A stretch of 64,000 bases of DNA from an uncultured Bacteroidota bacterium (lineage in GTDB: Bacteria > Bacteroidota > Bacteroidia > Bacteroidales > P3): assembly GCA_902762805.1 (NCBI GenBank), contig CACWPQ010000010.1, forward strand, positions 1 through 64,000. Direction: 5' to 3'. Positions 11,893-28,027 of the stretch are shown in pieces. The notes beneath the pieces were generated by a model, which worked only from the letters and a program-made list of their open reading frames with translations, ran no database searches and was not told where the DNA came from. Both the position numbers and the translations under genes were made by a program. How positions within the stretch are numbered: the stretch's first letter is position 1; the number at the start of each line of letters is the position of its first letter.

Positions 11893-12199
11893 GTAGGTAA
11901 GCCTTACCCGTACCATCGACGCCGAGCACTTCGCATAACGCCGAAGGCGAAAAATCTACAAGATTTACAAGATTTCGCGATGCCGTAGGCGAGCAGGAGA
12001 ATTGAGATTTATAGAACTCGCCCAAATTGAGGAGCCGCCGTTTGCTCCGCCCGTCGCGGTGGCACCACGGCCACCTTCGACCGTCTGAACAAATATAAAA
12101 CCACCCCACCGCCGCACCCCGAATGGAGCGCAGGCTGCCAGCCTGCGAAAGCGGATGCAAACCCGCAGAGTCCTACCGGACCATCCTGCCCCATCACAG

Positions 12200-25235: not shown

Positions 25236-25274
25236 CAGCATGATTGACGCACCGCATCAGGAAAAAAATTGTCA

Positions 25275-25889
25275 ATGGAGGCAATACCGTTCATAGGCAT
25301 CGACCGGCACCGGCTGGGGGTGGACGGCGTGGGGGTGACCACGCTGGCGGCTTTCCACGGCTGTCCGCTGCGCTGCAAATACTGCCTCAACCGACGCTGC
25401 CTGGAGCCGCCGGAGGGGTTGCAACGCTACACGCCACAGCAGCTCTACGACCACGTAGGCATCGACAACCTCTACTTCATCGCCACCGGGGGCGGAGTCT
25501 GCTTCGGGGGCGGCGAACCGCTGCTGCGCATCGACTTCATAGAGGCGTTCCGCGCCCTGTGCGGCAAGAGCTGGAACCTCACCGCCGAGACCTCGCTGCA
25601 GGTGAGTGCCGAGAGCGTGCGACGCGCCTGCGCGGTGGTGGGCGATTTTATCGTCGACATAAAAGAAAGCGACCCCGACATCTACCGCGCCTACACCGGC
25701 GGTGACGCCAGCCGTGCGTGGGACAACCTGCGGCTGCTACTCTCGCTCGTCGGGCCGGAGCACGTCACCGTCCGCGTCCCCCTCATCCCCTCCTTCAACT
25801 GCGAGGCCGATACCGACCGCACCGCCGACCGCCTCGCCGCCCTCGGCGTCACCCGCCTCGACCGCTTCACCTACCGCGTACAACAATAA
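25275..25889 (+). CDS. Small radical SAM protein (activating-enzyme-like)
   Basis: 204 residues from the first ATG. The radical SAM cluster motif is CPLRCKYC (Cx3Cx2C), preceded by VTTLAAFHG. GGGVCFGGGEPLL is the SAM-binding GGE region, ETSLQVSAE and VDIKESD are typical of pyruvate formate-lyase-activase relatives. The protein is shorter than a standard activase and no glycyl-radical enzyme is visible nearby, so the target is unknown. It may end early at the C-terminal side, but the frame is intact. Confidence 0.88.
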   Translation: MEAIPFIGIDRHRLGVDGVGVTTLAAFHGCPLRCKYCLNRRCLEPPEGLQRYTPQQLYDHVGIDNLYFIATGGGVCFGGGEPLLRIDFIEAFRALCGKSWNLTAETSLQVSAESVRRACAVVGDFIVDIKESDPDIYRAYTGGDASRAWDNLRLLLSLVGPEHVTVRVPLIPSFNCEADTDRTADRLAALGVTRLDRFTYRVQQ

Positions 25890-25922: not shown

Positions 25923-26018
25923 GGTCGGCCTAGCGGCCTCAAAATTGCAAGAAAATTGACCAAAAAAATTTTTTATAATTTTAAAGTGAATTTTCCTGTA
26001 ATTTTGAGCGCAGCGACC
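25923..26018 (+). repeat. Long-hairpin element R1
   Basis: 96 bp. Outer arms GGTCG/CGACC and CTCAAAATT/AATTTTGAG, extended by GCAAGAAAATT pairing with AATTTTCCTGT. A small inner hairpin GGCC-TAGC-GGCC sits at the 5' end. Same orientation as R2 and R3. Confidence 0.85.
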
Positions 26019-26048
26019 TAAAACAAATAAAACAAATTATGACATATT

Positions 26049-26146
26049 GGTCGGCCTTACGACCTCAAAATTATATGAAAATTGAATCAGAAAATTTTTA
26101 AATAATTTTATAATCTAATTTTTCTATAATTTTGAGCGCAGCGACC
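26049..26146 (+). repeat. Long-hairpin element R2
   Basis: 98 bp, same ends as R1 and 30 bp downstream of it. The stem changes jointly on both arms compared with R1 (ATATGAAAATT with AATTTTTCTAT). It ends 16 nt before the GxxExxY start codon, so it also forms the gene's leader. Confidence 0.85.
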
Positions 26147-26162
26147 TAAAAAACATAGAAAC

Positions 26163-26588
26163 ATGAACCTAATAGAAGAACACAACAAACGGTATGCGTT
26201 TTTCCATGAGATAACCGGAGAAGCCATGCGTGTCCATCGGAAATACCATTCCGGCTTGTTAGAATCGGCCTACGAGGCAGCGCTGAAATATCTGTTGGAA
26301 CAGAGGGGATATAAGGTGGAACGGCAGGTGTATTTGCCGATGTATTGGGACGACGTGCAGCTAGACCAAACCTATCGCATGGACCTTGTAGTCAATGATG
26401 AAATAATACTTGAACTCAAGGCAGTGAAGTTTGTCGACAAAGAGCATCGGCGCCAGCTGTTCAACTATTTGCACCTAACCCACACCCGCCACGGAATGCT
26501 CATCAACTTTGGTGGGGAAAGCCTTTTTTCCGAGTGGTATGAACGCGACCCGGAGACTGGCGAAATAGACAAGGTGAAACTAATATAG
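26163..26588 (+). CDS. GxxExxY-family protein (PD-(D/E)XK nuclease-like)
   Basis: 141 residues. The family signature is GLLESAY (Gly31, Glu34, Tyr37). A nuclease-like core follows: Asp74 in YRMDLVV, then Glu84 and Lys86 in ILELKAV, and QLFNYLHLT with the downstream Gln/Tyr helix. This matches the PD-(D/E)XK superfamily. The biological role of GxxExxY proteins is not established. The gene is bracketed at 16 and 8 nt by the long-hairpin repeats R2 and R3, with R1 in tandem upstream. This suggests a mobile or repeat-processing unit; that is inference. No promoter outside the repeats could be recognised. Confidence 0.9.
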   Translation: MNLIEEHNKRYAFFHEITGEAMRVHRKYHSGLLESAYEAALKYLLEQRGYKVERQVYLPMYWDDVQLDQTYRMDLVVNDEIILELKAVKFVDKEHRRQLFNYLHLTHTRHGMLINFGGESLFSEWYERDPETGEIDKVKLI

Positions 26589-26596
26589 GCTGCATG

Positions 26597-26694
26597 GGTC
26601 GGCCTAGCGGCCTCAAAATTGTAAGAGAATTGAACCAAAAAATTATAATATAATTTTATAATCTATTTTTTCTATAATTTTGAGCGCAGCGACC
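26597..26694 (+). repeat. Long-hairpin element R3
   Basis: 98 bp, same orientation and ends as R1 and R2, starting 8 nt after the GxxExxY stop. Arm sequence GTAAGAGAATT against AATCTATTTTTTCTAT keeps most of the pairing. Confidence 0.85.
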
Positions 26695-26737: not shown

Positions 26738-28027
26738 ATGACACACGGGAAGAACATCTGCAACCAGTTGAAGGAGGTCCGCAAGCGCATTGCGGAGGAA
26801 AATGACATACCTCTGGAGATAGAGGAGTGCAGCTACAAGGGCGAATGCCGCGGCACCTGTCCGCGCTGCGAGGCCGAGGTGCGCTACCTGGAGAACGCCC
26901 TGGCCGACCGCCTGCGGCTGGGCAAGGTGGCCACCGTCGCCGGCCTCGCGCTGGGTCTCGCCGCCACCGCACAGGCGCAGGCTCCGCAGACCAACACGGT
27001 GCCGTTGCAGGATACCTTCCATGCCCACAAGGCTGAATGTCTGGGTACCCTGAAAGGCATGGTGTTCGATATTAAGACCAACGAACCCCTGCCGTTCTGC
27101 AATGTTGTCTTGAGGCAAGACGGGAAGCAGATACTAGTAGGAACAACCGACTTCGACGGACGATATACCCTCAAGCCGATACCCTTCGGCGACTACACAT
27201 TGTGCATCAAAGCGCCTGAGAGGAAACAACCATTCGAGCAAGGGATTACCGTCAACAAGACGGGTTTCACCATGATGGATGTCGGTATGGATTTGGACAG
27301 CGCCTTCATCATCGATGGAGAAAAGAGGCCTGTGATTGACATAGGGATGCCTACTACTGTGGAGGAGATAATCGAGCAAATGACGCCAGGTGGGAAGGTG
27401 AATGTGCCCAGAGATGCCCTGGGCGAGATACAGGTGAAACTCCCCGGCACGCCGGCCAGCCAGCCCACTCCCAAGGAGCAGCCCGCCTTCTATGAGGACA
27501 AAGAGCAACGGGGTGTACGGGTGAAAGTGCTCTCCATTGCGGCGCTAGCACTGGGGATGGCCGCCAGCACTGTGCAGGCCTCCGAGACCTATCCTGCCGT
27601 GCTGCCCGAGGTGATGCCTATCGTCAAGGAGGCGGTGCATGTGGCCGACAGCGTCACGATAAGAGGCACAATAGTAGACTCCAAAACGAACGAGCCGCTA
27701 CCGTTTGTCAATGTCATCATCACCGACAGCAACGGCACGGTAACCGGCACTGCGACCGACTTTGACGGCAACTTTGCCGTGAAGGTGGCCAAGGGTAGTT
27801 ACACCATCACGTTCTCTTCTCTCGGTTATGCCAAATACGTGATGCTGGAGGACAAATACCAAAAGAACTGTACGCTGCCGCCCATCAAACTAGAGGGCAC
27901 GGCGACCTTGCTGGGCGAGATGGATATTATGAAATACGACCCTTATCATCATCCGGTCATTGAAATAGACCCCTACGGATCGTCGCAATACTTGGAGCGT
28001 GAGGGTGTGAAGGTCATCGTCCGTTAG
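26738..28027 (+). CDS. Duplicated CarboxypepD_reg-like membrane protein with N-terminal Cys motif
   Basis: 429 residues. The N-terminus is a soluble Cys-rich segment, CSYKGECRGTCPRCEAE (Cys31, 37, 41, 44), seen ahead of membrane anchors in Bacteroidetes proteins. A hydrophobic segment follows (about 63-80). A carboxypeptidase regulatory-like beta-sandwich lies at about 103-165 (GTLKGMVFDIKTNEPLPFCN). The pattern then repeats: a second hydrophobic segment near 265-282 and a second domain at 300-375 (IRGTIVDSKTNEPLPFVN). This domain is the usual plug-preceding module of TonB-dependent receptors, but no receptor is attached. An envelope role is inferred. Confidence 0.8.
   Translation: MTHGKNICNQLKEVRKRIAEENDIPLEIEECSYKGECRGTCPRCEAEVRYLENALADRLRLGKVATVAGLALGLAATAQAQAPQTNTVPLQDTFHAHKAECLGTLKGMVFDIKTNEPLPFCNVVLRQDGKQILVGTTDFDGRYTLKPIPFGDYTLCIKAPERKQPFEQGITVNKTGFTMMDVGMDLDSAFIIDGEKRPVIDIGMPTTVEEIIEQMTPGGKVNVPRDALGEIQVKLPGTPASQPTPKEQPAFYEDKEQRGVRVKVLSIAALALGMAASTVQASETYPAVLPEVMPIVKEAVHVADSVTIRGTIVDSKTNEPLPFVNVIITDSNGTVTGTATDFDGNFAVKVAKGSYTITFSSLGYAKYVMLEDKYQKNCTLPPIKLEGTATLLGEMDIMKYDPYHHPVIEIDPYGSSQYLEREGVKVIVR

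Follow-up and report, generated by a model that had tools for sequence, protein, structure and literature searches.

The window analyzed here, the whole stretch of 64,000 nucleotides, carries a gene for a GxxExxY protein that is enclosed by three hairpin elements, R1, R2 and R3 (Table 1). A preliminary description of this DNA had reported three elements in one orientation that share end motifs and fold into long stems, together with their spacing from the gene and the length of the protein, and all of these points were reproduced. The elements (96-98 bp) lie on the forward strand with 90% column identity, and each end motif occurs three times within the window, against 0.03 and 0.00 occurrences expected by chance. 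Predicted forward-strand folds of R1, R2 and R3 reach -36, -24 and -30 kcal/mol, with z-scores of -4.4 to -5.6 relative to dinucleotide shuffles.

Table 1. Features at the GxxExxY locus of the window (positions in the window).
Feature	Positions	Strand	Evidence or remark
Left neighbor, radical-SAM protein	25269..25889	+	Left border of empty site in genome G024
R1, complete hairpin element	25923..26018	+	Covariance-model match, 109 bits
R2, complete hairpin element	26049..26146	+	Covariance-model match, 111 bits; ends 16 nt 5' of start codon
GxxExxY gene, predicted PD-(D/E)XK nuclease fold, 141 aa	26163..26588	+	TIGR04256 E=2e-36, PF13366 E=9e-34
GLLESAY motif, residues 31-37, E34 conserved	26253..26273	+	Alignment
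Predicted catalytic core D74...E84-x-K86	26382..26420	+	Invariant alignment columns
R3, complete hairpin element	26597..26694	+	Covariance-model match, 111 bits; starts 8 nt 3' of stop codon
Right neighbor, carboxypeptidase-regulatory-like repeats	26738..28027	+	Right border of empty site in G024

Judged from its sequence, the window protein is a PD-(D/E)XK nuclease-fold protein with a D...ExK core. It scored 124.9 bits against TIGR04256 (curated cut-off 35) and 116.7 bits against PF13366 (cut-off 22). The core residues D74, E84 and K86, which the preliminary description had paired with the GLLESAY motif, proved invariant in an alignment of 14 diverse sequences, as did E34 of that motif and Q98, and 118 of 125 full-length GxxExxY proteins retain the whole E-D-ExK-Q motif. 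A structure model of a relative was confident (pLDDT 95); its PDB matches were PD-(D/E)XK-fold nucleases, with Cas4, alkaline exonucleases and a Holliday-junction resolvase as the closest solved folds, but all were weak (best E=2e-3), and the Foldseek search gave no match with E<0.001.

Five R1-type elements are present in the 41-contig, 2.49-Mb host genome, namely the three at the window locus and two solo copies. The genome also encodes two further PF13366 genes, three in all, and both are likewise enclosed by inverted repeats of sequences unlike R1: one of 24 nt with 100% complementarity (GAAATCTTGTAAATCTTGTAAATT) and one of 50 nt with 78%. The 24-nt repeat family recurs as solo hairpins at several further sites of the genome. 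Elsewhere in the window (positions 11954-11975, reverse strand) lies one arm of a CTTGTAAAT-family hairpin, cognate to the C34 GxxExxY gene, with no second matching arm reported nearby. In genome G000 (L001:922-1127, contig C7), a separate repeat family with a GCATATATGC-type palindrome is present as five 41-nt copies in tandem, about 350 nt away from a solo R1 element.

Inverted repeats around GxxExxY and S23 genes

We aligned the 300 bp upstream of each gene to the reverse complement of the 300 bp downstream, with a threshold score of at least 16. Among Bacteroidales relatives, inverted-repeat flanks were found at 35 of 54 distinct GxxExxY genes versus 2 of 135 neighboring genes (Fisher 6e-22). 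A sample from many phyla gave 39/73 versus 6/217 controls (7e-22); it comprised 80 named loci, found by scanning species genomes with a five-sequence GxxExxY alignment, and one Prevotella plasmid record, with flanks counted over 73. The scanned loci came from Bacteroidota, Chlorobiota, Ignavibacteria, Planctomycetota, Verrucomicrobiota, Chloroflexota, Acidobacteria, Cyanobacteria and Proteobacteria; the one archaeal occurrence was in a Methanothrix bin. About a third of GxxExxY genes have no detectable inverted repeat. Six Y1_Tnp genes, intended as a positive control, mostly scored low in the same test (best 19.5).

The arms of these repeats are arrays of 8-11 nt units, a typical arm reading ACCACAGAGACACAGAGAACACAGAG. 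Periods of 8-10 nt are favored in GxxExxY flank arms, and control flanks are flat. Genes of the CTTGTAAAT family begin directly where one arm ends. Their first codons (ATGCTGACGCAACAACA; L006, L082) are similar to the loop in many solo hairpins, which carry TGCTGACGCA at the same place. Either these solos are gene-deleted cassettes or the gene took over loop sequence; under both origins the gene would belong to the element. The window clade differs, its gene lying between whole hairpins and not in a loop. A GxxExxY gene of Prevotella nigrescens (NZ_CP082843.1, L276:2740-3870), 71% identical to that of the window, lies between tandem whole hairpin-like units of a sequence family unlike R1.

Free-standing genes for S23 four-helix proteins (PF05635) are common in the same genomes, and 36 of 53 have the inverted-repeat layout, with flank arrays of 7/14-nt periodicity. 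Examples inside inverted arrays are L149:2495-2878 and L121:1480-1842, and the rate is about that of GxxExxY genes. R1 elements also occur near S23 genes in G007 and G022.

Repeat families, protein clades and site occupancy

A covariance model of R1, run over 25 congeneric genomes and 16 from other families, identified 47 distinct sites (46 distinct sequences) in 10 of the 25 and none in the 16. The preliminary description had named an element as common away from GxxExxY genes as near them as evidence against its idea, and this was not what the copies showed: most sites (37 of 47) are solo, as with REPs, but 10 of the 47 fall within about 1 kb of four such genes. Copies are more similar within a genome (0.76) than between genomes (0.66). 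Five R1-type hairpins stand in tandem with 9-nt gaps at L109:471-1127 (G007, contig C14), with a GACAAC array just upstream.

The intact GxxExxY genes flanked by R1 elements (in G000, G003, G007 and G013) form a single clade with 100/100 support and sit at three unrelated loci; other clades have other repeat units, often with the gene within the hairpin loop. Across all pairs, protein identity correlated with shared flank k-mers (Mantel r=0.54, 0/2000 permutations). Part of this match is expected from linkage alone, so the solo copies weigh more. With copies that adjoin a gene omitted, each of the three families tested had more solos where the genome carries the cognate gene: R1 (2, 5, 5 and 13 solos in genomes with the gene; exact permutation p=0.00047), CTTGTAAAT (9, 19 and 11; p=0.00043) and GACAAC (8, 4, 16, 4 and 5; p=0.00075), in tests that treat genomes of one genus as independent. 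G014, which has no gene of the GACAAC clade, has nine GACAAC matches, several of them close to contig ends.

Orthologous sites differ in occupancy. G024 has no part of the window cassette: its radical-SAM gene is 96% identical to the window's neighbor, and the stop codon runs into the leader of the next gene. G003 has the gene and two elements at the equivalent place. Loss of the cassette in G024 and gain elsewhere are indistinguishable. At one solo R1 site of the host genome, G003 and G022 also have R1, about ten other genomes lack a hairpin, and other hairpin families occupy the site in G001, G024, G064, G069, G006, G011, G062 and G043. A second site shows at least five hairpin families as well as empty alleles among the genomes compared. 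Hairpins are thus gained and lost at preferred intercistronic sites. Some families have outer frames in common and take each other's place at a given site. Target-site duplications at element ends showed no excess apart from tandem arrays. At one intercistronic site (site B; L199:430-740, G000 contig C7), the upstream gene appears to take its stop codon and C-terminal tail from the hairpin, and a swap of hairpin family would therefore alter the end of the upstream protein.

Over the 47 distinct R1 sites, 19 of 33 stem pairs show double changes, and the 79 double-change cells exceed every shuffle (mean 41, maximum 53). The paired arm changes seen among the three window copies thus hold in a larger alignment, but much of the covariation is a single concerted switch, AAAATC/AAAATT, in the repeated unit along both arms. 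The stem mismatches comprise 66 G-U and 32 A-C, and since one pair supplies 28 of the G-U there is little strand bias. The opposite strand of R1-R3 folds comparably. A DNA palindrome fits the R1 pairing pattern better than an RNA stem does. An Rfam scan of six stretches returned one tRNA only and no family for the hairpins.

Comparison with known repeat systems

Hallmarks of RAYTs are flanking inverted REPs, coevolution with REPs and a presence correlated with REP abundance (Nunvar et al., PMC2817692); the proposed replicating unit is a REP doublet that forms a hairpin (Bertels and Rainey, PMC3116915). GxxExxY genes resemble REP/REPIN-RAYT systems in being flanked by their own palindromic repeats, at the window and in both flank samples, and in having repeats that form hairpins, stand solo in intergenic space and occur in clusters and tandem arrays. 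Gene clade and repeat family pair up, as seen in the fully supported R1 clade and the Mantel correlation, and repeat number tracks the cognate gene in three families, genomes being treated as independent. Other features set the two apart. RAYTs are Y1 tyrosine transposases related to IS200/IS605, whereas the enzyme here is a predicted PD-(D/E)XK nuclease (PF13366/TIGR04256). Unlike REPs and REPINs, the GxxExxY hairpins have arms built of 8-11 nt units, number about 20 or fewer per genome in the families counted (versus more than 100 copies), and comprise many families within one genus, with a gene that can occupy the hairpin loop. Since three RAYT hallmarks recur here with an enzyme that is not a Y1 transposase, the system would be REPIN/RAYT-like in its working and not a member of that class. 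No Y1_Tnp match was found in G013 (14 R1 copies) or G007 (9 R1 copies), and the G013 result led us to reject a RAYT as the driver of R1.

The S23 intervening sequences and free-standing S23 genes also place one small gene inside inverted repeats, but the GxxExxY protein is unrelated to the four-helix bundle and its arms have a period of 8-10 nt versus 7/14 nt. Unlike the intervening sequences of 23S rRNA, the GxxExxY copies examined, that of the window included, lie between protein genes. As with MITEs and their parent transposons, short non-coding copies share their ends with a gene-bearing copy, and the solo loop of the CTTGTAAAT family resembles the gene start. In contrast to classical IS elements and MITEs, the hairpins have neither target-site duplications nor a known transposase, and the window family, unlike MITEs, has its gene between complete hairpins.

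Possible roles of the GxxExxY nuclease

The preliminary description had likened the locus to a repeat with its cognate enzyme, as in REP/RAYT, with a nuclease-fold protein in the enzyme's place. This was supported in part: the pairing of repeat and enzyme stood well beyond this locus, with flank statistics, clade congruence, copy numbers and filled and empty sites in its favor, whereas movement of the hairpins by the nuclease is inferred. The description had not foreseen the S23 layout, the different repeat families of other GxxExxY clades with genes often in the hairpin loop, or the lack of RNA-strand bias in the pairing. Our preferred reading, which we hold to be somewhat probable, is a REPIN/RAYT-like repeat system with a PD-(D/E)XK nuclease as its cognate protein. 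It draws on the observed layout, clade-repeat pairing, copy-number association, presence and absence at orthologous sites, and intact active site. Each GxxExxY clade would have its own hairpin family, with arms of inverted 8-11 nt unit arrays, and the gene would sit in the hairpin loop or, as at the window, between complete hairpins, with solos populating intergenic sites. The protein may recognize its own unit array and nick or cut the hairpin in cruciform or single-stranded form, perhaps during replication; cutting would then cause solo hairpins, and the protein's own cassette, to be copied or exchanged.

Our confidence in this mobilizing role is moderate, mainly because of the S23 layout. 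S23 proteins are no nucleases and yet are enclosed in the same way, with 7/14-nt units; movement therefore need not be the work of the enclosed protein, which could be a passenger. Another agent, such as host recombination or a further transposase, might instead move or exchange the hairpins, with the GxxExxY protein as a passenger or self-regulating cargo. The swapping of families with shared outer frames at one site, which homologous exchange could yield, and the absence of target-site duplications also point this way. We consider it rather unlikely, however: solo number tracks the cognate clade in three families, a RAYT is excluded as the R1 agent in G013, and the retention of the catalytic site in nearly all full-length proteins argues for an activity in use.

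The other explanations carry less weight. An RNA-level element, in which the GxxExxY protein processes or protects a long-stem transcript, would match the overall layout of the S23-encoding intervening sequence of 23S rRNA, whose stem is cut by RNase III (PMC4990558), and the elements are intercistronic with strong RNA folds. It is nonetheless improbable, as G-U does not exceed A-C once the single dominant pair is removed, the other strand folds comparably, the hairpins have no Rfam family, the window copy lies outside rRNA, and RNA processing alone leaves the filled and empty sites unexplained. That the protein is a defense or toxin-type nuclease with hairpins as regulatory or self-marking sites is very improbable; the fold family is Cas4-like, but PADLOC Cas4 scores are weak and marginal (E 0.0003-0.01), and this reading has no place for genome-wide solo hairpins or clade-specific repeats. 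AT-rich intergenic hairpins are common, but ordinary terminators or chance palindromes beside an unrelated gene are refuted by the flank counts of both samples.

Extended beyond this locus, the REPIN/RAYT-like reading leads to a more tentative proposal: GxxExxY nucleases may be the cognate mobilizing enzymes of a large, undescribed class of hairpins built from arrays of 8-11 nt units. This would be a second and independently evolved REPIN/RAYT-type system, based on a PD-(D/E)XK nuclease, of which S23 four-helix proteins would be a parallel variant. If true, the repeat-plus-cognate-enzyme lifestyle of REP/RAYT also arose with an unrelated enzyme. The clade-specific link to hairpins offers a testable function for GxxExxY proteins, a widespread family with no assigned one, and would account for a class of palindromes dispersed across phyla. 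In the literature we found passing mentions of GxxExxY only, in a search largely without subscription papers, so an earlier description may exist. One algal virus also has an annotated GxxExxY protein (locus BQ1_072; PMC12085832), which extends the family to viruses of eukaryotes.
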